Positions 1,302 to 26,296 of a stretch of 34,681 nt of DNA are shown here, piece by piece (position 1 is the stretch's first letter; each line of letters begins with the position of its first letter). The stretch comes from Bifidobacterium breve. Its GTDB lineage: Bacteria > Actinomycetota > Acidimicrobiia > Acidimicrobiales > Acidimicrobilacustridaceae. The DNA lies in assembly GCA_945862505.1 (NCBI GenBank), contig CAMAYJ010000023.1:1-34681 (forward strand), in the 5' to 3' direction. The notes under the pieces were generated by a model. That model was not told the DNA's origin. It worked only from the letters and a program-made list of their open reading frames with translations, and did not search any database. A program made the translations under genes and the position numbers.

Positions 1302-2393
1302 ATGTCTCGTCTTAACGACTTATATACAACCGAGGATCAAAGTCCTTGGCTCGACAACGTGCGGAGAGACTGGATCGAAAACGGCGAGATGCAGCGCTGG
1401 GTTGACCGCGGTGTTCGTGGAGTCACGTCGAATCCAACGATCTTTCAGAAGGCCATTTCTGGTGGAGATGCCTACGACGGGCAATTTCGCGAACTCCTTT
1501 CGAGCGGAACATCGGTTACTGACGCCTATTGGGAACTCGTAGTTACCGACATCAATCATGTTCTCGCTCTTCTGCGTCCGGTCTACGACTCAAGCAACGG
1601 GATCGACGGTTACGTCTCGATCGAGGTCTCTCCGCTGCTCGCTCGCGATACCGAAGGAACAGTTACCGCAGCGCGACATCTTCATCGACTCATCAATCAG
1701 CCGAACCTCTACATAAAGATTCCCGGCACCAGAGAGGGCCTACCGGCTATTAGGTCGATGATCTCCGAAGGAGTGAGCGTGAACGTCACGCTGCTTTTCT
1801 CTCTTGATCGTTACCGTGAGGTGATGGAGGCCTACATTTCTGGCCTCGAAGCTTGTGAGGGTGACCTCTCTGCGGTTTCTTCTGTTGCCTCGTTCTTCAT
1901 TAGTCGAGTCGATTCAGAGGCTGATAAGCGTCTCGACGCTCTGAATTCGACCGAAGCTGCAGCGCTCAAGGGCAAGGTTGCTGTTGCCAACGCACAAGTG
2001 GCCTACGAGGCATTTCTCGAAACGTTTAGTGGTCCCCGTTGGGACGCGTTGGCTGCTCGGGGAGCACGCCCGCAGCGTCCACTCTGGGCGTCAACATCTA
2101 CAAAGAATCCCGACTATCCAGACACGCTCTATGTTGATCAACTCATCGGCCCGAACACTGTCAACACGATTCCTGAGAAGACTCTCGATGACTTCGATGA
2201 TCACGGGACGCTCAAGCGAACTGTCGACGCTGATCTACCTGGCGCCCACGCCGTCCTTTCGACATTTGCCACGCTCGGTATCTCACTCGCAGATGTAACC
2301 GCACAGCTAGAAGATGAAGGCGTTGCGTCCTTCTCTAAGTCGTTCGATGACCTTCTCGAGTCTCTTGAGGCCAAGGCGAAGACTCTGAAGTGA
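1302..2393 (+). CDS. tal: Transaldolase
   Basis: This enzyme transfers a dihydroxyacetone unit between sedoheptulose 7-phosphate and glyceraldehyde 3-phosphate in the cytoplasm. The protein has 363 residues, the length of the mycobacterial-type transaldolase. The N-terminal TSNPTIFQKAI motif (about residues 42-52) and IEVSPLLARDTEGT (107-120) are present. The Schiff-base lysine is expected at K139 in NLYIKIPGT. The motifs RPLWASTSTKNP and TVNTIPEKTL in the C-terminal half are also typical. The ATG at 1302 is preceded by a GGAG at a suitable distance. The gene is cotranscribed with tkt (14-base gap), and its stop overlaps the GTG of the next gene by 4 bases, which suggests translational coupling. 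It is not fused to glucose-6-phosphate isomerase, as happens in some bacteria. Confidence 0.97.
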   Translation: MSRLNDLYTTEDQSPWLDNVRRDWIENGEMQRWVDRGVRGVTSNPTIFQKAISGGDAYDGQFRELLSSGTSVTDAYWELVVTDINHVLALLRPVYDSSNGIDGYVSIEVSPLLARDTEGTVTAARHLHRLINQPNLYIKIPGTREGLPAIRSMISEGVSVNVTLLFSLDRYREVMEAYISGLEACEGDLSAVSSVASFFISRVDSEADKRLDALNSTEAAALKGKVAVANAQVAYEAFLETFSGPRWDALAARGARPQRPLWASTSTKNPDYPDTLYVDQLIGPNTVNTIPEKTLDDFDDHGTLKRTVDADLPGAHAVLSTFATLGISLADVTAQLEDEGVASFSKSFDDLLESLEAKAKTLK

Positions 2394-3073
2394 AAGGTTC
2401 ACTCGTCGTCGTCGACGACGTAGCGAAGGCCTTTGCGCAACTCGTCGTCGATCAAGCCCAATCGAACTCTCTAGCGTTCTCTCTAGCGTTCTCGGGTGGT
2501 TCGACTGCACGCGACTGTTATCGGGAGCTCGCCCGCTCTGGCTCAACCGCTATTGACTGGAAGAACGTCACCGGCTGGTGGGGCGATGAGCGGTGCGTTC
2601 CTCTCACCGATCTCGCTTCCAATTTTCGCTTGGTAAAGGAGTCTCTACTTGAATTCGTTGAGCCCCTCGCTGCGGTCCATCCCATGCATTCAGGAATCTC
2701 TGATCCGGACCTTGCTTATGAGCAACTCCTTCGAGCCTCGCCCCCAATCGACCTCATCCACCTGGGGCTCGGACCAGACGGTCACACCGCATCGCTCTTC
2801 CCTGGTTCCGATGCGCTCGATTCTCCAAAGGATCGGCTTGTGGTTCTAAATCGCGATCCGTCCTCAAACAATCCTCACGAACGGTTGACATTTACCTTTG
2901 AGGCCATCTCTCAGTGCAGGACGGTCGTGGTCACTGTCGCCGGCTCGGCCAAGACAGACGCCCTGCATCGGGTGCTCGACGGCGATCTGAGCGCGCCAGC
3001 CACGCGTCTCTCTGGGACAGACGTCATTTGGCTCGTAGACAACGCGGCAATGGGCGCACGAACCCCCCGATAG
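2390..3073 (+). CDS. pgl: 6-phosphogluconolactonase
   Basis: It hydrolyses 6-phosphogluconolactone to 6-phosphogluconate, the second step of the oxidative pentose phosphate pathway. The protein has 227 residues, near the usual 230-250. It shows the phosphate-loop motif SGGST (about residue 36), WWGDERCVP (64-72) and GLGPDGHTASLFPG (126-139), which together define the DevB/SOL family. The GTG start at 2390 overlaps the tal stop (GTGA). Just before the SGGST loop a 12-base unit occurs twice in tandem (2468-2491), giving SLAFSLAF in the protein, and Ala replaces the more common Pro after GGST. In many actinobacteria zwf and opcA lie between tal and pgl; here they are absent. The next gene is fbiC, 10 bases downstream. 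Confidence 0.94.
   Translation: MKGSLVVVDDVAKAFAQLVVDQAQSNSLAFSLAFSGGSTARDCYRELARSGSTAIDWKNVTGWWGDERCVPLTDLASNFRLVKESLLEFVEPLAAVHPMHSGISDPDLAYEQLLRASPPIDLIHLGLGPDGHTASLFPGSDALDSPKDRLVVLNRDPSSNNPHERLTFTFEAISQCRTVVVTVAGSAKTDALHRVLDGDLSAPATRLSGTDVIWLVDNAAMGARTPR
2468..2491 (+). repeat. Perfect 2 x 12-bp in-frame tandem duplication inside pgl
   Basis: The unit tctctagcgttc occurs twice head to tail with no mismatch and encodes the repeated SLAF residues just before the conserved SGGST loop. It keeps the reading frame, so it could be a recent slippage event or a family-typical Leu/Ala/Phe strand that happens to repeat. Confidence 0.8.
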
Positions 3074-3083
3074 GGTTCCCGAC

Positions 3084-5423
3084 ATGCTTCGGCTCGATGC
3101 TCCGCTCGAAGAACTCATGGCGCGAGCCAGGTCTATTCGTGACAACTCGTTTGGTGTGAGGGTTACCTATTCGCCGAAGGTGTTCATTCCTCTCACCATG
3201 CTCTGTCGCGATCGCTGTGGCTATTGCACCTTTGCGCAACCGCCCGCTCGCCTTGAGTCCCCGTACCTCTCCCCCGCTCAAGTCCGAGCCCTTGCGATCG
3301 CCGGAGCACGGGTTGGTTGTCATGAAGCCCTCTTCACACTCGGAGAGGCTCCTGAGGACCGTTATCCAATCGCGGCGCAATGGCTCTCCGACAATGGTTA
3401 CTCCTCGACGATCGATTATGTCGCTGCGATGGCTCAACTCGTTCTCGACGAAACGGGGCTACTCCCCCACGCCAATGCTGGGGCGCTGCCGGCCGATCAA
3501 CTCGCACAATTGCGGAAGGTTTCCCCGTCTCAAGGCGCGATGGTTGAGTCGTTGCGTGGTGATCTTGAATGTCACCGTGGTGCTCCCGATAAAACTCCTG
3601 AACGCCGCCTCGCAACGCTCGAATCGGCGGGCGAACTCGCCATTCCTTTCACTACCGGAATACTCGTCGGCATCGGGGAAAATCGTGAAGATCGCATCGA
3701 GGCGCTCGAAGCGATAGCTGCTTCACACCTTCGACATGGCCACGTGCAGGAAGTGATCGTTCAGAACTTCCTCCCCAAAGAGGGAACCGCAATGCATTCC
3801 GCTCCGGCCTGTCCAAGCGACGTCTACCTAGATGCCATCGCTCTCGCCCGAATCATTCTCCCTCCGGATGTGCACCTTCAGGCGCCACCAAATCTTTCTG
3901 ATGATTTCGGCATCCTCCTCGACGCAGGCATCGACGACTGGGGCGGCGTCTCCCCGGTTACCGCTGACCATGTGAACCCCGAGCGGCCTTGGCCAGATCT
4001 CGACCGCCTGCGTGAAGTTACCGAAGCAAAGGGCTTCGAACTTACTCCTCGTCTCACTGTCCATCCTGAGTTCGTGCGGGAAGACACCAAGTGGATCGAT
4101 GAAGGCCTTCGCTTTTCGGTGATGGATCGATCAGACGCCGATGGACTCGCCCGAGATGATCCCGGAGCCGTCTTCGTCCAGTCGCTCAAGCCCGCTGCTC
4201 CTGAACAGGTTGATGACGGCGTTGAAGTCCTTCAGATCGGACCGCGGTCCACAATTTGGAGCGCTGGTTCACGTATCAGCCCACCTGCGCTTATTCCTGC
4301 GAAGGGACGAGCAACCGGCGCAGTTGCTGAAGTCATCGCCGGGGTGCGTCTAGGACAAGAACCAGGTCTCGACGAGATCGTCACACTGTTCGGTGCTCGC
4401 GGCCAGAACTTCGCCGCAGTGACGCAATTGGCCGACGAACTCCGACAGGAAGCTGTTGGAGATACGGTCACTTGGGTACATAACCGAAATATCAATTACA
4501 CAAACGTCTGCACGTTTAAGTGCAAATTCTGCGGATTTAGCAAAGGCCCGCTTTCGCTGAATCTGCGCGGCACTCCTTACTTACTGACCCTTGATGACAT
4601 TGCTACGAGAAGTCGTGAAGCGGCAGATCTCGGCGCGACGGAGGTCTGCCTTCAAGGTGGAATTCATCCAGACTTCGACGGCAACTACTACATCGATGTT
4701 GCACGCGCCGTTTCCGTAGCAGTTCCTGAAATACACATTCACGGATTCACCGCTCTCGAAGTCACCGAAGGCGCACGACGCCTCGATGAACCACTCGACT
4801 CCTACCTCCGCCGTCTCAAAGACGCCGGTCTAAAAACCCTCCCAGGCACGGCCGCCGAAATTCTCGATGATGAAATACGCGCCATCATCTGTTCAGACAA
4901 GATCAACACCGAGGAATGGCTCGAGGCTCACCGGATCGCACATAGCGTTGGTCTTCGTTCCAACATCACCATCATGTTCGGTTCTGTAGAGCGACCCATC
5001 CATTGGGCCCGTCACATCGTCCGCACTCGAGATCTACAAAGAGAGACCGGCGGATTCACCGAATTTGTGCCGCTTCCATTCGTGCATATGGCAACTCCGT
5101 TGTACCTCCAGAAGAAAGCCCGGAGAGGTCCAACGTTCCGCGAGACGATGCTCATGCACGCGATTCCGCGCATCGCCTACCGCGGCCTCATCGACAACAT
5201 TCAGGCTTCGTGGGTGAAGTTGGGTGCCAACGGTTCCAGACAGGCGTTGCAGGCTGGCGCCAACGATCTGGGTGGAACGCTGATGGATGAGAACATCAGT
5301 CGCGCCGCCGGAGCCGATCATGGCCAAGGTATGGAACCGTCCGATTTTGCCGAACTCGTGGCCCCAATCGGCCGCAACGCTGTGCAGCGCACGACGCTGT
5401 ACGGACGTCTTGCCGGAGTCTGA
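3084..5423 (+). CDS. fbiC: FO synthase, fused CofG-CofH type (F420 biosynthesis)
   Basis: FbiC makes FO (7,8-didemethyl-8-hydroxy-5-deazariboflavin), the chromophore of coenzyme F420, from tyrosine and a flavin pathway intermediate. The 779-residue protein contains two radical-SAM halves. The N-terminal CofG-like half has CxxxCxxC at C41, C45 and C48 (CRDRCGYC). The C-terminal CofH-like half has a second CxxxCxxC at about C476, C480 and C483 (CTFKCKFC), followed by typical CofH sequences such as CLQGGIHPDFDG. Fusion of both halves is the actinobacterial arrangement; archaea and cyanobacteria have two separate genes. The ATG at 3084 lies 10 bases after the pgl stop, so the gene is probably in the tkt-tal-pgl transcript. 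Both clusters look intact. No F420-dependent enzyme or other cof/fbi gene is visible in the window. Confidence 0.96.
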   Translation: MLRLDAPLEELMARARSIRDNSFGVRVTYSPKVFIPLTMLCRDRCGYCTFAQPPARLESPYLSPAQVRALAIAGARVGCHEALFTLGEAPEDRYPIAAQWLSDNGYSSTIDYVAAMAQLVLDETGLLPHANAGALPADQLAQLRKVSPSQGAMVESLRGDLECHRGAPDKTPERRLATLESAGELAIPFTTGILVGIGENREDRIEALEAIAASHLRHGHVQEVIVQNFLPKEGTAMHSAPACPSDVYLDAIALARIILPPDVHLQAPPNLSDDFGILLDAGIDDWGGVSPVTADHVNPERPWPDLDRLREVTEAKGFELTPRLTVHPEFVREDTKWIDEGLRFSVMDRSDADGLARDDPGAVFVQSLKPAAPEQVDDGVEVLQIGPRSTIWSAGSRISPPALIPAKGRATGAVAEVIAGVRLGQEPGLDEIVTLFGARGQNFAAVTQLADELRQEAVGDTVTWVHNRNINYTNVCTFKCKFCGFSKGPLSLNLRGTPYLLTLDDIATRSREAADLGATEVCLQGGIHPDFDGNYYIDVARAVSVAVPEIHIHGFTALEVTEGARRLDEPLDSYLRRLKDAGLKTLPGTAAEILDDEIRAIICSDKINTEEWLEAHRIAHSVGLRSNITIMFGSVERPIHWARHIVRTRDLQRETGGFTEFVPLPFVHMATPLYLQKKARRGPTFRETMLMHAIPRIAYRGLIDNIQASWVKLGANGSRQALQAGANDLGGTLMDENISRAAGADHGQGMEPSDFAELVAPIGRNAVQRTTLYGRLAGV

Positions 5424-19814: not shown

Positions 19815-20021
19815 TCAGTCTTTTGAGGCGACTGCATTCGGAACGACATTCATCTTTGGCTCATAGGCGTCAACCTCAACCTCACGGGGTGCCGACCCCA
19901 ATGTGGCGCGCATCACTTCACGACAATCCTCGCATGGCCCGTAAAAACGCCCGCTCGCAGCCTTGGCACATCGAGGACAAACGAAATCAAGTGGTGCCGT
20001 GTCGAACAAGTCTGTGCCCAT
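19815..20021 (-). CDS. Small four-Cys zinc-ribbon protein
   Basis: The 68-residue protein has two CxxC knuckles (C15, C18 in FVCPRC and C30, C33 in GPCEDC), the pattern of a small zinc ribbon, followed by VEVDAYEPKMNVVPNAVASKD. That C-terminal PKMNVxPNAVAxKD segment is familiar to me from short actinobacterial proteins without assigned function. I chose the ATG at 20021; a GTG 18 bases upstream is an alternative. The same frame is open upstream to 20771, but that part lies antisense to the neighbouring glycosyltransferase gene and is not protein-like. It ends 17 bases from the convergent ppiA stop and starts about 40 bases after the GT-C gene, so it may be the last gene of that transcript. 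Confidence 0.72.
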   Translation of the reverse strand: MGTDLFDTAPLDFVCPRCAKAASGRFYGPCEDCREVMRATLGSAPREVEVDAYEPKMNVVPNAVASKD

Positions 20022-20062
20022 AGAGACATCATCGCGCACGAGAGGCGGTGGGGTCGTAACAG

Positions 20063-21187
20063 TCAAGGAACGTATGCGCCTGTCCATGCAAGCGCGCTGA
20101 GGGCAACGACTCCCCCGGCGAGGATCGTCGTTACTACTCGATCTGATAGCGGGATCTTCGTTGCCACCGCAAGCGTGAGCGCTATCGGGAATGCGTTGAT
20201 TCCATAACGCTCCAGTGAATTCAGATTCTCGGCGCCCAAAGCTGCGCACAGAATGATCGCGGAAAAAATTCCGTACGACACCGGCCAGCAGCGAAATGTC
20301 AACACCAACAAAACCACGAAGGCAATTGCAAACGGGATATGGAGACCGTCGGAAAATCGAGTGGAACCAAACATCTGCGAAATTCCATCCCACATTCTGC
20401 TCATGGGGTTGACCGCAGTTCCCCTCAAATCGTTTTGCACGGAGAAGGGAAGCCAAGCATCGCCGAACACACGATTTACCCAAAGCAGATACGCACCGGT
20501 CGCAACGAAGGGCGAGCACACAGCAGCGAGACCGACTGCCCGCTCGTTGTTCTTGGCACTTCGCCACACTCGGAGTAGTTCGATGGCCACTGGGACGGCA
20601 AAAACGATTCCCAGAGGTCTTGTGAAACCAACGATGAGACCGGCGGCAATCGCCCAACCCCATCGTCGAGTCCGAATCGTCCAAAAACCAAAAACGGCAG
20701 CAAGAATCCACAGCGATTCGGCGTATCCCCAAGCCAACACGAACGCTCCGGGGAAAAGACACACCATCCACACCGCACGGTTTGCCAACTCTTTTGACCC
20801 CCGCTCAAAAATCACCAATCGACGAATAGCAACAGCCAGCAGAAGGGACGCGATATTCGCCACGAGTATGAGTGCGAGATCAGTTCGGCCCAGGGTCACG
20901 ACTGACATGACGCGACCGAGCAACGGGAAAAGAGGGAAGAACCGAAGGCCGTCCGGGGCAACAGCGTCATACCCATACATAGCGATATCGCGGTACCACG
21001 TGCCATCCCAAGCAATGAGACCCTCGCTAAGGACATTGGGCTTATTCGTGGGAACGAGGTGCTCGGACGCCGCGTATGCAGTGATGAAACCCGCAGCAAT
21101 CAAAACACGCGTCGTTAGCCACGGCAGCAGTACTTCTCTAAGGTCCGCATAGAACTTCCGACACTCAGAAGAAATCGATGAGTTCAT
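20063..21187 (-). CDS. GT-C fold membrane glycosyltransferase, PIG-V-like
   Basis: The 374-residue polytopic protein has about 9-10 predicted membrane helices. The first extracytoplasmic loop carries WDGTWYRDIAMYGY and then FFPLFPLLGRV, which resemble the PIG-V/GPI mannosyltransferase II motifs (an Asp next to Trp in the first loop and a PLFP segment). Such GT-C enzymes transfer a sugar, usually mannose, from a polyprenyl-phosphate donor to an acceptor on the outer face of the membrane. The acceptor cannot be told from the sequence. Its ATG overlaps the stop of the upstream GT-C gene by 4 bases (ATGA), so the two are almost surely one operon. Confidence 0.82.
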   Translation of the reverse strand: MNSSISSECRKFYADLREVLLPWLTTRVLIAAGFITAYAASEHLVPTNKPNVLSEGLIAWDGTWYRDIAMYGYDAVAPDGLRFFPLFPLLGRVMSVVTLGRTDLALILVANIASLLLAVAIRRLVIFERGSKELANRAVWMVCLFPGAFVLAWGYAESLWILAAVFGFWTIRTRRWGWAIAAGLIVGFTRPLGIVFAVPVAIELLRVWRSAKNNERAVGLAAVCSPFVATGAYLLWVNRVFGDAWLPFSVQNDLRGTAVNPMSRMWDGISQMFGSTRFSDGLHIPFAIAFVVLLVLTFRCWPVSYGIFSAIILCAALGAENLNSLERYGINAFPIALTLAVATKIPLSDRVVTTILAGGVVALSALAWTGAYVP

Positions 21188-22746
21188 GATGACGGCGCGA
21201 ATCGCAGAAGCGAGGCGTGCTCGAAGTACCGATCGCCATTCTCAGCCACCAGCAGTTGTGGAGCTCGTACCGTCGAGAGAGCGTCGATCAAGCCAGTACA
21301 TTTTCCTTCGAAGGTCTCATACGCGTCACTCCAAACGACAAAGACTGTGTGAGTCGATCCGGCTTGGATGAGAACGCGTCCCGCAAAGGCTGCGGGATCT
21401 GAGGCTTTATTTCGAGCGCCGTAGTCGACCCAATCCACGAATTGGCCATTTTCATAGGCCGGATAGGAAATAAATGTAAGCCCTGCTGGCATCACCCGAA
21501 CTCCTGCGGGTCCCAACTGGTCGGGACAGAAAACGACAATGTCGCCAGCCTTCGCTGTCGTTGTCAGCTCCTCGCCGAGTTCCTTTAGTTGTGTGCGGCT
21601 GTAGAAGACGTTCCAGACCGCGCCAACGGACAGGAGCAGACACATCGCCGCCACGACGCCGAATCGAATCCATCTCGATGCGAAGCAGGAGATGCCTGCG
21701 GCGGTGATGACTGCCAAAAAAGGAAAAATTACAGCGGTATAACGACCGGCGAATGCATTGTTGGCAACGAACGAAATCGACGTGCCGATGAAAAAGGTGA
21801 ATGCAGCGATCCACGCCGCTCCCCTGAACTGTGGTCGAGTCCGGAGGTCGAGAGCTGTCGTTCTGCGATCCACTACGAAGCCGAAGACTCCCAACACGAG
21901 CGCCATCGCGATCAGAACCGCTCCCAACCCGCGTTCCCCGTAATTTCCGCCGCCGTTGTCGGCCAACGTCCATGCCAAGGCCGTGGTTGGCCTCGTGGCG
22001 GGCGCCCATGGAGTTCCGGTGTGTGCTGCCTGGTAGAGCATTGTTGGAAGCCAAGGAACGAACGCTATTCCTGCGGCTACCAGTGCCAGAACAAGACTTA
22101 GCCACGGTCGGCGGGCTGCGCTGTCAGGAGCCCTCCACACCTTCCAAAGAGCCGTGAGACCAACCGCACCGAGCAGCCATAGGCTCCAATAGTGGGTGTA
22201 GAGGAGCACTGCTCCAACAACGGCGATTCCGAAAAAGCGAGGAAGGGTCGCCTTGCCTCGATCAATCACATCATCAATCAGCAACCAGCCAATGGCCACA
22301 AGGAGCATTACGAGCGAATACATCCTCGCTTCGTTCGAATAGCGCACCGCAAAGGGTGAAACTGCGACGACAGCGACCGCAACCCAACCCAAGGTGGGAC
22401 CGCCCTTGCGTCGACCGATTACCCACACCAGCGGGAGGGTAAGGAGTCCGAACAACCCAGAGAGACCGCGAACCGAAAGATCTCCGGAACCGAAGACGCC
22501 TGTCCACCAGTGAAGCAGGAGGTAATAAAACGGCGGATGACCGTCATGTTTGAGGTGCTCAAAAAGCTGACCGAGCGGGGCACTGGCGATATTTACCGAA
22601 AGTGCTTCATCAAGCCATAGAGAAGAACGAGTCACGAAACGGGTAAAGATGCCCACGGCTATAGCGACAGCGGCGAGAGCGATGATCTCAGGCCGCGCCC
22701 GATTCTCTTTAGTCACCACTGATTGGCCATATTCCTCGTCGTGCAT
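21184..22746 (-). CDS. GT39/GT83-like membrane glycosyltransferase
   Basis: About 520 residues with a first membrane helix (IIALAAVAIAVGIFTRFV) followed by a loop with SLWLDEALSVNIA and later HDGHPPFYYLLLHWW. The acidic pair DE after the first helix and the HPPFYY segment are hallmarks of the PMT/ArnT-like GT-C superfamily. About 10-12 helices follow, then a soluble C-terminal part with FCPDQLGPAGVRV and FVVWSDAY. The enzyme probably uses a polyprenyl-phosphate-linked sugar. I chose the ATG at 22746; the frame is open to 22827, but that part overlaps the divergent promoter region and is not family-like. It is the first gene of a minus-strand pair and diverges from the FAD oxidoreductase gene with 109 bases between starts. 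Confidence 0.86.
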   Translation of the reverse strand: MHDEEYGQSVVTKENRARPEIIALAAVAIAVGIFTRFVTRSSLWLDEALSVNIASAPLGQLFEHLKHDGHPPFYYLLLHWWTGVFGSGDLSVRGLSGLFGLLTLPLVWVIGRRKGGPTLGWVAVAVVAVSPFAVRYSNEARMYSLVMLLVAIGWLLIDDVIDRGKATLPRFFGIAVVGAVLLYTHYWSLWLLGAVGLTALWKVWRAPDSAARRPWLSLVLALVAAGIAFVPWLPTMLYQAAHTGTPWAPATRPTTALAWTLADNGGGNYGERGLGAVLIAMALVLGVFGFVVDRRTTALDLRTRPQFRGAAWIAAFTFFIGTSISFVANNAFAGRYTAVIFPFLAVITAAGISCFASRWIRFGVVAAMCLLLSVGAVWNVFYSRTQLKELGEELTTTAKAGDIVVFCPDQLGPAGVRVMPAGLTFISYPAYENGQFVDWVDYGARNKASDPAAFAGRVLIQAGSTHTVFVVWSDAYETFEGKCTGLIDALSTVRAPQLLVAENGDRYFEHASLLRFAPSS

Positions 22747-22855
22747 GCCCCCGCAGAGTACCGCCGTACTCTGCCTCGGACAGCCACCCGGATCATCACT
22801 AGTCAATGATGGCTTCACTACACTCATTCCCGTCCCTCATTGCGAAAGTGGTCTG

Positions 22856-24442
22856 ATGACGTCTCCCCCCGAAGCCAGCAATCCAACGCACCCAACGGTC
22901 GTGATTATCGGCGCCGGGCCCGCAGGACTCACCGCTGCGTTCGAACTCTCGAAGGCTGGCCGATTGAGCACCGTGCTTGAGGCGACCGACATGGTCGGAG
23001 GCATTTCTCGCACCGTCGAACGCGATGGCTGGCGTTTTGATCTCGGCGGCCACCGGTTCTTCACCAAGGTTCAACCAGTCGAGGACCTCTGGCATGAAAT
23101 TCTTCCCGACGAGGATTTCCTCATGCGTCCCCGCATGAGCCGCATCTTTTACGACGGCAAGTACTTCGACTATCCGCTTAAAGCGTCGAACGCCCTCAAG
23201 AACCTCGGGATTCTCGAAGCCGTTCGTTGCGTCGCGTCCTACTTTTGGGCCCGGGCGAAGGTGAGCCTCTCAAAACTTCTTGGTCGCCATAAGCCAGAGA
23301 CAAGTCTCCAAGACTGGATCACGAACCGCTTCGGGAAGCGCCTGTTCGACCACTTCTTCAAGACCTATAACGAAAAAGTATGGGGAGTTCCGGCGAGCGC
23401 CCTGCAGGCCGACTGGGCTGCGCAACGCATCAAGAACATGTCTCTTTGGAATGCCGGTATGAACGCCATCCTCGAGACAATCCCCAGTTGGGTCCCATTT
23501 GTCCACGCTGGAAAATCAACCGACATCACCTCACTGATCGAGGAATTTCAGTACCCCAAATACGGTCCTGGGATGATGTGGGAAGCCGCACGAGACAAAG
23601 TCGTCGCCGCAGGCTCAACCGTTCTGATGGAACAGAAGGTCACGCGCATCGAACATCGTGAGGGTCGAGCTATTTCGGTCACGACAACGAGTGCGAGCGG
23701 AACGAAAACGTTCGAGTGCGACGAGGTCATCTCGTCGATGCCGATGTCGTCGCTTCTGAAAGCGATGGATCCGCCACCACCTGCCGACGTACTATTCGCG
23801 GCAAACGATCTGCGTTATCGAGATTTCCTCACCGTTGCTCTCGTTGTCCCCGAGAGCGTTGGGTTTCCCGATAACTGGATCTACATCCACTCACCAGCGG
23901 TGATCGTCGGCCGAATTCAGAACTTTGGGTCTTGGTCTCCATACATGGTGAAAGAAGGCCGAACCTGTCTCGGCCTCGAATACTTTGTTTTCGAAGGCGA
24001 CAAGATTTGGAACACCTCGGACGAAGAACTTGTCGCGCTGGCCACTCGCGAACTCGAATCAATTGGACTCATTGAGTCCGGTCGGATCGAGGCTGGCTAT
24101 GTCGTGCGCGTCCCTAAGGCCTATCCGTTCTACGACGAGCGGTACAAGGCCAATGTTGAGAAACTTCGAGAGTGGATTAACGAATGCGCTCCTAACGTGC
24201 GTCCCGTTGGTCGAAACGGCATGCATCGCTACAACAACCAGGACCATTCGATGTACACGGCAATGCTTACAGTTGAAAACATCGTGAATGACTCTTCCCA
24301 TGACGTTTGGGAGGTCAATGTCGACGAGGAATATCACGAGGAGAAGGCTCCCGCCTCCGGTGCCGGTACTGGTAGAGATGCTCCAGTCATCGAGCGAGAC
24401 GCGTTCGAGCGCGATCACCCCGTCCATCAATCGCCGTCCTAA
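22856..24442 (+). CDS. FAD-dependent oxidoreductase, COG1232-type
   Basis: The 528-residue protein begins with a Rossmann FAD motif (VVIIGAGPAGLTAAFELSKAG, G19, G21, G24) followed by LEATDMVGGISRTVERDGWRFDLGGHRFF. The FFKTYNEKVWG and DWAAQRIKNMSLW motifs are typical of a group related to protoporphyrinogen oxidase and UDP-galactopyranose mutase that is often found next to glycosyltransferases. A second conserved part is SSMPMSSLLKAMDPPPP. The C-terminal NGMHRYNNQDHSMYTAMLTVENI fits FAD binding. I chose the ATG at 22856 because the upstream extension to 22649 overlaps the divergent gene. The substrate is unknown; a lipid-linked sugar or polyprenyl compound is possible given the neighbours. The GT4 gene follows 7 bases downstream. 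Confidence 0.87.
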   Translation: MTSPPEASNPTHPTVVIIGAGPAGLTAAFELSKAGRLSTVLEATDMVGGISRTVERDGWRFDLGGHRFFTKVQPVEDLWHEILPDEDFLMRPRMSRIFYDGKYFDYPLKASNALKNLGILEAVRCVASYFWARAKVSLSKLLGRHKPETSLQDWITNRFGKRLFDHFFKTYNEKVWGVPASALQADWAAQRIKNMSLWNAGMNAILETIPSWVPFVHAGKSTDITSLIEEFQYPKYGPGMMWEAARDKVVAAGSTVLMEQKVTRIEHREGRAISVTTTSASGTKTFECDEVISSMPMSSLLKAMDPPPPADVLFAANDLRYRDFLTVALVVPESVGFPDNWIYIHSPAVIVGRIQNFGSWSPYMVKEGRTCLGLEYFVFEGDKIWNTSDEELVALATRELESIGLIESGRIEAGYVVRVPKAYPFYDERYKANVEKLREWINECAPNVRPVGRNGMHRYNNQDHSMYTAMLTVENIVNDSSHDVWEVNVDEEYHEEKAPASGAGTGRDAPVIERDAFERDHPVHQSPS

Positions 24443-24449
24443 GCCTCAA

Positions 24450-25622
24450 ATGAGCTCCGCAGTTTCGGTCGACGACATCACTGCACTTGCACTCGCTGCA
24501 GGAATTCAGCGAGTGCATGTTCTTGCATGGCGTGACCTTGTCGATATTGAAGCGGGCGGTTCTGAGTTGCATGCAGCGAGAGTGCTCTCGCTTTGGTCAG
24601 AAGCCGGCCTTGAGGTGTCTATGCGCACCTCCTATGCACAAGGCCATCCCTACGAAGGCACTCGCGATGGATACCGGATCGTTCGCAAGCACGGCCGTTT
24701 CATGGTCTTTCCGACGACGGTCATCAGCGAGATTCTTGGCAGCCTTGGGCCTCGAGATGCAATTGTCGAGATCTGGAACGGTGTCCCTTTCCTCACGCCC
24801 CTCTGGGCGCGCGGGCCCCGATCGACATGGATTCATCACGTGCACCGCGACATGTGGGAAATCGTCCTCGAGCCCGGCTTAGCGAAGGCTGGCAAATTCT
24901 TCGAACATCGACTGGCGCCTCCGCTTTACCGTCGCACGCCCATCGTCACGCTTTCTGAATCAAGCCGGTCAGAGATCGTTGAGTATCTGAGACTCCCCGC
25001 AGCCAACGTACGTGTCGTTCCTCCTGGCATCGACGGGCAGTTTCACCCCAGCGGTGAAAAATCCCCAACTCCACTCGTTGTTTCGGTTGGACGATTTATG
25101 CCTTCGAAGCGGTTCGACGATCTCATCGAATCCATGGTCGAAGTACGACGGTCGGTGCCCAACGTTGAGCTTGTCATCGTTGGCGATGGTTACGAGCGTC
25201 CCGCGCTGGAGGCCCAGATTTCTTCACTTGGCGCAAAGTCTTGGATCCGTCTCGCTGGACGAGTTTCCGACGAGGAACTTCTTTCGCTCTATCGACGCGC
25301 ATGGGTTGTCGCTAGTGCGTCGATCGCTGAAGGGTGGGGAATGACCCTCACTGAGGCCGCCGGCTGCGGCACACCCTCTGTGGCTACCGATATTGCCGGG
25401 CATCGCGACTCGGTGGCACCGAATTTGTCGGGTCTCCTCGCGCGTTCTTCACGCGAGTTCGCCGAGTCTCTGGTCGCCGTACTCACCGACCAAACATTGC
25501 GTGATCGACTCTCAGCAGGAGCGCTCCAACACGCAGCAACCCTTACCTGGACAGCCACCGCACTAGGAACGTTCACTCCCCTTGCAGAAGACGCCCTTCG
25601 CCGCCACAAAGGGCACTCATAG
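24450..25622 (+). CDS. Glycosyltransferase family 4 protein
   Basis: A 390-residue soluble GT-B enzyme with retaining GT4 features. The N-terminal domain has AGGSELHAARV (about residues 35-45). The C-terminal domain starts VVSVGRFMPSKRFDDLIESM, then LVIVGDGYERPALE, and the nucleotide-sugar site has SIAEGWGMTLTEAAGCGTPSVATD, where the two Glu of EGWGMTLTE form the EX7E motif. The frame is open upstream to 24288, but that overlaps the FAD oxidoreductase gene, so I chose the ATG at 24450, 7 bases after its stop. The stop TAG shares one base with the GTG of the hydrolase gene. It probably adds a sugar from a nucleotide donor on the cytoplasmic side, while the two GT-C enzymes act outside. Confidence 0.92.
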   Translation: MSSAVSVDDITALALAAGIQRVHVLAWRDLVDIEAGGSELHAARVLSLWSEAGLEVSMRTSYAQGHPYEGTRDGYRIVRKHGRFMVFPTTVISEILGSLGPRDAIVEIWNGVPFLTPLWARGPRSTWIHHVHRDMWEIVLEPGLAKAGKFFEHRLAPPLYRRTPIVTLSESSRSEIVEYLRLPAANVRVVPPGIDGQFHPSGEKSPTPLVVSVGRFMPSKRFDDLIESMVEVRRSVPNVELVIVGDGYERPALEAQISSLGAKSWIRLAGRVSDEELLSLYRRAWVVASASIAEGWGMTLTEAAGCGTPSVATDIAGHRDSVAPNLSGLLARSSREFAESLVAVLTDQTLRDRLSAGALQHAATLTWTATALGTFTPLAEDALRRHKGHS

Positions 25623-26296
25623 TGGCGCCACCAGTCGTCCTCGTGCCTGGCTTTGCGACGTCTGCATCGAGAACTTGGGGTGACAACGGTTGGATCGATC
25701 TGCTCGCTGACATCGGCCGCACCGCGTTCGCTCTTGACGTTCTCGGTTCAGGCTCCTGCGAGAAGCCACATGATCCTGTGGCGTATGCAATGTTTGAACA
25801 ACACCTGCTCGACCGTTTCCCGTCTGAGCCAGTCGACGCGATCGGATTCTCGCTTGGTGCTCGAACGCTCCTCACTTTGGCTGCCGTGCATCCCGATCGA
25901 TTCAATTCGCTTATCGTTGCTGGCGTAGGTCGCAACCTGTTCGAACGCGATACGACAGGCGAATCGATCGCATCTGCCATCGACGGAACCGGCGACAGCA
26001 ACGACCCGACAGTTCGCTATTTCGTGCAACTGGCAGAGGCGCCCGACCAAGATCCCTTGGCCCTCGCTGCGTTCATGCGCCGGCCTTCCGCCGTTCCGAT
26101 CACTCGCGAGCTTTTGGGTGCGATCACCTGCCCTGTCCTTGTTGTTTTAGGCGACAAAGACTTCGCTGGCCCGGCCGATCCGCTCATGGACGCTCTACCC
26201 GGATCTCGCTTGGTCACGCTCCGAAACGTCGACCACTTCGCCACGCCCAAGGATTTCGGCTTCATAGACGCTGCTCTCAGCTTCCTCTCAACTTAG
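25622..26296 (+). CDS. Alpha/beta hydrolase
   Basis: A 224-residue single-domain hydrolase. The oxyanion segment is VLVPGFATS near the N-terminus; the nucleophile is S77 in GFSLGAR, the acid is D178 or D180 in LGDKDFAG, and the base is H205 in NVDHFATPKD, so the triad is complete. It lacks a signal peptide. The GTG start shares one base with the stop of the GT4 gene, giving tight coupling. The substrate is not evident; the linkage to the FAD oxidoreductase and GT4 suggests a glycolipid or polyprenyl ester, which is inference only. No terminator is evident in the following 156-base gap. Confidence 0.9.
   Translation: MAPPVVLVPGFATSASRTWGDNGWIDLLADIGRTAFALDVLGSGSCEKPHDPVAYAMFEQHLLDRFPSEPVDAIGFSLGARTLLTLAAVHPDRFNSLIVAGVGRNLFERDTTGESIASAIDGTGDSNDPTVRYFVQLAEAPDQDPLALAAFMRRPSAVPITRELLGAITCPVLVVLGDKDFAGPADPLMDALPGSRLVTLRNVDHFATPKDFGFIDAALSFLST

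Follow-up and report, generated by a model that had tools for sequence, protein, structure and literature searches.

Five adjacent genes at positions 20063-26296 of a 34,681-nt stretch of DNA (contig C23; hereafter the window, to which all coordinates refer) form a real, conserved glycan locus in an Acidimicrobiales genome of 2.3 Mb in 115 contigs, judged 99.55% complete. The block is divergent, with two polytopic GT-C genes of the PIG-V and PMT_2 types on the minus strand and genes for a flavin adenine dinucleotide (FAD) protein, a GT4 glycosyltransferase and an α/β hydrolase on the plus strand. A second genome of the genus (L015) holds orthologues of all five, arranged in the same way, and the arrangement is kept in part across the order, so that it is more than a chance juxtaposition. 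Family membership, conserved active-site residues, co-occurrence and gene order were computed, and on balance they favour a role in building an arabinan-linked envelope polysaccharide of Acidimicrobiales that is exported, contains furanose sugars and is made without Emb, Glf or GlfT2, a polymer whose nature and sugars we infer.

The FAD protein (529 aa; 22853-24442, plus strand) is most likely a mutase of the UDP-galactopyranose mutase (UGM) type, that is, an NDP-sugar mutase. It matches PRK07208.1-4 (NF005548), a family that NCBIfam describes as ‘hypothetical protein', at 763.7 bits, above the curated cut-off of 389. Its best matches in the Protein Data Bank (PDB) are UGMs of the eukaryotic type, with an E value of 6.1e-26 for the single sequence and 1.9e-36 for a profile of 53 sequences; the matched chains are those of the Aspergillus fumigatus enzyme (UgmA, here AfUGM), which their numbering fits. 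The best UGM match covers residues 15-373, with a second piece at residues 452-481. Reciprocally, the 338-aa AfUGM segment finds PRK07208.1-4 as its best NCBIfam model (132.7 bits, E 1.4e-38), scores 36.4 bits with the Amino_oxidase family PF01593 and matches neither PF03275 nor TIGR00031, the prokaryotic UGM models. The window protein behaves likewise, reaching 32.4 bits with TIGR00031 (cut-off 303.75), while PF03275 is not among its Pfam matches; this failure is no argument against UGM function, because the AfUGM segment matches neither model.

The residues that line the UGM active site are largely retained. AfUGM ligand residues were taken from Table 3 of PMC3624792, the offset was fixed with the help of position 207, at which the PDB chains carry different residues, and conservation was read from a 53-row alignment of the window protein with 52 of 65 usable loci, drawn from 80 FAD loci. 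In the alignment with AfUGM, R182, Y317, R327, Y453 and N457 correspond to R192, Y344, R354, Y460 and N462 of the window protein, and N163, W167, H63, Y104 and F158 to N173, W177, H67, Y107 and F168; AfUGM Y419 was placed by eye, in the profile alignment, opposite Y424. Nine of these positions (R192, Y344, R354, Y424, Y460, N462, W177, H67 and Y107) are invariant in 53/53 rows; N173 is not. All five counterparts of the substrate-diphosphate ligands (AfUGM R182, Y317, R327, Y419 and Y453) are thus kept in every row, among them the two arginines R182 and R327 that are reported as important for function of the Aspergillus enzyme (PMC3893270). The G-G-H loop carrying the flavin-adjacent histidine is present as G65-G66-H67. 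Matches to the protein in ten genomes were reported with an in-frame TGA; in the nine examined, the stop lies at the end of the protein in 9/9. The nearest named matches are metagenome-assembled genomes with names suggesting lakes, one of them labelled Candidatus Microthrix; from these names the window may come from fresh water. Farther afield, four distant plasmid records (of eight listed, 44 matched), from Novosphingobium, Methylomagnum and, twice, Gloeothece, carry a glycosyltransferase gene within 5 kb of the FAD gene.

The GT4 protein (390 aa; 24450-25622, plus strand; PF00534 at 111.1 bits, cut-off 26.4) is of the retaining type, and its E-x7-E motif, E294/E302, has both glutamates invariant in 14/14 aligned rows. 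Strong orthologues, defined by a match above 300 bits with all such rows taken in, occur in 74/148 genomes of the order. Among 60 GT4 neighbourhoods, 40 contain a protein with a median length of 1525 aa, and the one scanned is AftD (PF11847 at 330.3 bits), an arabinofuranosyltransferase of arabinogalactan (PMC6034362). Of the 148 genomes, 73 carry both GT4 and AftD and 69 carry neither; a single genome has GT4 without AftD, and 5 have AftD without GT4; AftD presence was scored over all 78 genomes that bear it, and the second-copy GT4 rows of G005, G013 and G045 were left out of these counts. Eight families (f7, f14, f16, f23, f28, f30, f31 and f32) mix presence and absence, and in each, by eye, GT4 and AftD agree, a match that common descent by itself does not account for; exceptions number six and fall in f12, f17, f22, f47, f53 and f55. 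Fisher p values for co-occurrence throughout ignore relatedness. By typed rows, the two genes share a contig in 58/72 genomes, with no more than 1 kb between them in 26 and no more than 10 kb in 52, distances being measured to the N-terminal domain for 76/115 AftD rows. At the level of genomes, the tie between GT4 and AftD is solid. The two genes do not adjoin each other in the genus of the window: in G053 they lie about 52 kb apart on the same contig, and AftD is absent from the window, the genome's own copy (1480 aa; PF11847 at 307.6 bits) being located on contig C82 (2163-6605 of L077, minus strand).

The partnership may account for the position of the α/β hydrolase (224 aa; 25622-26296, plus strand; PF00561 at 56 bits, cut-off 25.8). 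In one relative (L019), GT4, AftD and the hydrolase stand in a row, and the GT4-hydrolase junction of the window may therefore be a remnant of such a row, as this gene order suggests. The hydrolase occurs in only 13/60 GT4 neighbourhoods and within 5 kb of the FAD gene in 3/67 loci; it is an accessory gene, found in some relatives directly 3′ of AftD, and not a core member of the set in which the earlier note had listed it.

From 148 distinct FAD loci, 81 have 5 kb on both sides; 14 of these are titled as other actinomycetes, and the remaining 67 are called Acidimicrobiales-type by exclusion. In 43 of the 67, the FAD gene has PMT_2 within 5 kb, always on the 5′ side of FAD (15 divergent, 28 co-directional), and the pairing thus survives inversions. 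PIG-V is as close in 26/67, and GT4 in 22/67, always downstream on the same strand. At the genome level GT4 and FAD genes occur together in 69 of 148, GT4 alone in 5, FAD alone in 20 and neither in 54; 47/69 pairs share a contig, and 38 of these lie within 10 kb, all 38 on the same strand. Outside the order, a genome from another order of the class (L267) carries AftD, GT4, a GT2, FAD, PIG-V and PMT genes in that order on one strand within 14 kb, and in the set of 14 from other actinomycetes the FAD gene has PMT_2 nearby in 3 loci and PIG-V in 1. Two further neighbours in other genomes are leads only: a GT2 resembles PpgS (85.6 bits, cut-off 370) and an acyltransferase shows a weak likeness to SucT (26.2 bits, cut-off 1275). 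Comparison of related genomes, which the earlier note had proposed, does find co-occurrence and upholds its idea of a single glycan locus, in which a cytoplasmic-type GT4 and polytopic GT-C enzymes are kept together, once the FAD protein is reassigned, the hydrolase taken out of the core and AftD added.

A probable source of arabinose for AftD is encoded elsewhere in the genome. UbiA, DprE2 and DprE1 lie side by side on contig C22 (13779-16867 of L224, minus strand) and all exceed their NCBIfam equivalog cut-offs (DprE1 596.8 bits against 500, DprE2 299.5 against 250, UbiA 355.3 against 207); DprE1 also matches solved DprE1 chains at 429 bits. Homologues of the trio are near GT4 in five f7 genomes, all within about 4 kb: in L273 and L274 DprE2 ends less than 100 bases 5′ of GT4, and in L061, L064 and L065 the DprE2-GT4 gap is about 1.9 to 4 kb, with the UbiA of L061 cut by the end of the stretch. 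DprE1 exceeds its cut-off in 45/74 genomes with GT4 versus 14/74 without, and is loosely linked to the FAD gene as well (44/89 with, 15/59 without). These counts use NF053785; PF04030, tried as a DprE1 marker, was set aside as misleading, the genome's own DprE1 reaching 27 bits there while other matches exceed 200 bits. The view of the earlier note that no known pathway fits exactly overlooks the chief clue, which lies off the window: the 73/1/5/69 distribution of GT4 and AftD together with the decaprenyl-phospho-arabinose pathway in the genome.

A possible division of labour can be proposed, in which we infer the substrates, the side of the membrane and the sequence of steps as well as the polymer. 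The PRK07208 flavoprotein would work in the cytoplasm, converting an NDP-hexopyranose into its furanose form and back, with UDP-Galp and UDP-Galf as the likeliest pair. There GT4 would also transfer a sugar from a nucleotide donor onto a glycan that is nascent or linked to a lipid; it may start the chain, as the earlier note had it. On the outer side of the membrane, the PMT_2 and PIG-V-like enzymes may add sugars from polyprenyl phosphates, a role predicted from profile matches of the GT39/GT83 and PIG-V types, and the AftD-type enzyme would add arabinofuranose from decaprenyl-phospho-arabinose, presumably supplied by UbiA, DprE1 and DprE2.

Several observations weigh against this scheme. At the uracil contacts of the mutase Y107 and F168 are kept, AfUGM F106 and Q107 are L109 and K110 in the window protein, and AfUGM N207 aligns with F216, so that the window protein may use another nucleotide or sugar than AfUGM. 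Of the FAD-bearing genomes, 20/89 have no strong GT4, and neither GT4 nor AftD of the locus type turns up in the 14 named loci from other actinomycetes, each flanked by 5 kb. The genome's own AftD is divergent: 14 AftD rows of the order score 627-771 bits and the rest, itself included, at most 357. The stronger AftD subfamily, found with DprE1 in 10/14 genomes (p = 0.16), offers no clear support either. The strongest point against a strictly arabinan polymer is that 27/74 GT4-bearing genomes have no DprE1 at E 1e-60, so that AftD-type enzymes would act there without a known arabinose donor. Finally, profile searches of the genome find neither GLF nor Emb nor the N-terminal domain of GlfT2; the genome thus offers no arabinan polymerase or galactan of a known kind, and a classical galactan is unlikely. 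GLF occurs in 3/89 FAD-bearing versus 8/59 FAD-less genomes (p = 0.027) and, within AftD-bearing genomes, in 2/70 FAD-bearing versus 2/8 FAD-less ones (p = 0.05), p values that serve as guides since the genomes are not independent; that canonical Glf and PRK07208 replace each other is only suggestive. As a separate observation, the N-terminal domain of GlfT2 occurs in only one of the 148 genomes, G016 (L225, L281), in which the GLF match is the strongest and PRK07208.1-4 is not found at E 1e-80.

It is quite unlikely that the FAD protein is instead a true redox enzyme of the protoporphyrinogen-oxidase or phytoene-desaturase type, acting on a lipid carrier or a sugar within an ordinary exopolysaccharide locus, as its earlier designation as a COG1232-type oxidoreductase would have it. 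Such chemistry agrees with a score of 88.6 bits for PF01593 (cut-off 19.8), with NCBIfam matches of about 40-60 bits to models of protoporphyrinogen oxidase and of carotenoid desaturase, and with plasmid records that call such proteins FAD-dependent or NAD(P)/FAD-dependent oxidoreductases. However, solved oxidases match only the N-terminal part, about residues 5-100 (among the best 60 of 103 PDB rows), while UGM covers most of the protein, the UGM substrate residues are kept, and the PF01593 label is no argument for redox activity because the AfUGM segment itself scores with PF01593 and not with PF03275. The oxidase assignment was rejected as the main one, and the oxidoreductase label is better given up in favour of a UGM-like protein as indicated by PDB matches, NCBIfam and active-site residues. 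A mutase of this type could nevertheless belong to a different system from GT4, if FAD, PMT_2 and PIG-V made up a module for a separate glycan or glycolipid that is co-located with an arabinan-type module of GT4 and AftD. FAD genes without a strong GT4 in 20/148 genomes, five GT4-bearing genomes without FAD, and PMT_2 genes near FAD both in the loci of GT4-less genomes (L096, L097, L099, L105, L106, L107 and others) and in some Frankia-related records (L136, L147 and L182) would all follow from this arrangement, which we consider doubtful but worth keeping in mind, given that 69/74 GT4-bearing genomes also have FAD and that the 38 of 47 same-contig pairs lying within 10 kb are all on one strand.

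A locus for trehalose lipids or other exported lipids, rather than for a polysaccharide, would recall the AftD/GT region of Corynebacteriales, in which MtrP, TmaT and MmpA-like genes are associated with trehalose mycolates. In the phylum as a whole, 36/246 genomes, those of the order included, match the GT4 profile at E 1e-55, and GT4 adjoins a methyltransferase and AftD in some distant ones, namely G279, G352, G229 (L250, L253, L254, L271, L272) and G249 (L276), the canonical AftD query being the untrimmed 2418-aa stop-to-stop frame of L223. Among sixteen such stretches, that of G234 (L268) has no AftD within its 20 kb, and L269, L270 and L275 have weak or distant AftD matches only. In three genomes of family f89 (L261-L266), which appears mycobacteria-like, methyltransferase, GT4, acyltransferase and AftD are gathered in some 11 to 21 kb, with AftD partial in G290, where the stretch ends; we take the names of the f89 counterparts to be Rv0225 and Rv0228. 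In L264, the stretch from GT4 to the acyltransferase, which lies upstream of AftD, includes at 2099-5018 an MmpA-family match (640.6 bits) and PorA (317.3 bits); this MmpA-family protein is of the trehalose lipid delivery type. In C. glutamicum the order is described as aftD, cg3162, tmaT, cg3164 and cg3165 (membrane proteins), the putative glycosyltransferase cg3166, cg3167 and mtrP, and Rv0224c and Rv0226c are named among essential orthologues (PMC7775120). Besides tmaT and mtrP there, and MmpA and PorA in L264, the related methyltransferase and acyltransferase genes, each in 5/60 GT4 neighbourhoods, point towards lipid export. Nonetheless, scans of nine window proteins reveal no MmpA or mycolate gene, the order itself not having been searched for them, and the partner that GT4 tracks is AftD, with DprE2 directly 5′ of GT4 in L273 and L274; a lipid-export function is accordingly improbable.

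The anatomy of the block agrees with the earlier description of its divergent layout. The longest open frames extend over 20063-21187 and 21184-22827 on the minus strand and over 22649-24442, 24288-25622 and 25622-26296 on the plus strand. The PIG-V-like gene (374 aa; 20063-21187, minus strand; PF04188 at 27.7 bits, cut-off 22.4) and the PMT_2 gene of the GT39/GT83-like type (about 520 aa; 21184-22746, minus strand, frame open to 22827; PF13231 at 39.9 bits, cut-off 26.1) overlap by 4 bases at 21184-21187, and their products carry WDGTWY and LDEA stretches, respectively, close to the N terminus. FAD and GT4 are separated by 7 bases (24443-24449), with the GT4 start most likely at 24450, and GT4 and the hydrolase share base 25622; the Pfam families of the five are PIG-V, PMT_2, Amino_oxidase, Glycos_transf_1 and Abhydrolase_1. 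Taken as longest open frames, the divergent PMT_2 and FAD genes overlap. Likely starts of our choice are ATG 22746 for PMT_2, picked by eye through a TANNNT element just 5′ of it in the window and six relatives, and ATG 22853 for FAD, which leaves 106 bases between them (22747-22852). This intergenic region, the divergent promoter region of the locus, contains a palindrome, GCAGAGTAC-CGCC-GTACTCTGC, at 22753-22774, with 9-base arms that form a perfect inverted repeat. Its candidacy as a conserved operator was rejected, since a repeat scan found the inverted repeat in 0/6 relatives' regions; one half-site is exact in 3/6. Inside the palindrome, just 5′ of the PMT_2 ATG, TACTCT looks like a leaderless -10 element, and by eye six relatives have TANNNT at this position. 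A 77-aa CxxC zinc-ribbon-like open reading frame (19815-20048, minus strand) follows directly downstream of the PIG-V gene; its rubredoxin match is weak (17.3 bits, cut-off 23), it is found no more than 5 kb from FAD in 12/67 loci, and it is a possible neighbour of the glycan locus.

It is conceivable, though tentative, that Acidimicrobiales make a wall polymer with arabinofuranose and galactofuranose without Emb, Glf or GlfT2, an arabinogalactan-like polymer outside Mycobacteriales, and that PRK07208 is a bacterial UGM of the eukaryotic type. If so, this large and widespread family, now called hypothetical protein or oxidoreductase, would acquire a testable function, and the arabinan-linked envelope assembly of mycobacteria and corynebacteria would extend, in reduced form, to largely uncultured actinobacteria. 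In the literature searched, with most subscription journals outside its scope, PRK07208 is not mentioned and neither AftD nor DprE1 is mentioned together with Acidimicrobi; arabinogalactan and Acidimicrobiia occur together in four papers, none of them on the topic to judge by their titles, and Rv0225 occurs in one.

Compared with known systems, the flavoprotein resembles AfUGM over most of its length and keeps the counterparts of H63, R182, W167, Y317, R327, Y419, Y453 and N457, but it belongs to the bacterial family PRK07208 and has L109/K110 at the uracil-contact positions F106/Q107. As in the mycobacterial arabinogalactan pathway, the genome has genes for decaprenyl-phospho-arabinose synthesis and an AftD-type transferase; in contrast to it, EmbABC, Glf and GlfT2 are missing. 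The decaprenyl-phospho-arabinose pathway itself is represented by the same three adjacent genes, UbiA, DprE1 and DprE2, although they lie on contig C22 instead of at the window locus and approach GT4 only in f7 among the loci compared. As in the Corynebacteriales AftD/Rv0236c locus, GT4s of this family stand near AftD and, in other families, near a methyltransferase and an acyltransferase, whereas in Acidimicrobiales GT4 and AftD have diverged and are joined to a UGM-like gene and to PMT_2/PIG-V. The f89 gene order resembles that of the C. glutamicum aftD region, and the partnership described here, if true, would hint at the partner of a putative glycosyltransferase encoded close to aftD in Corynebacteriales (cg3166 of C. 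glutamicum).

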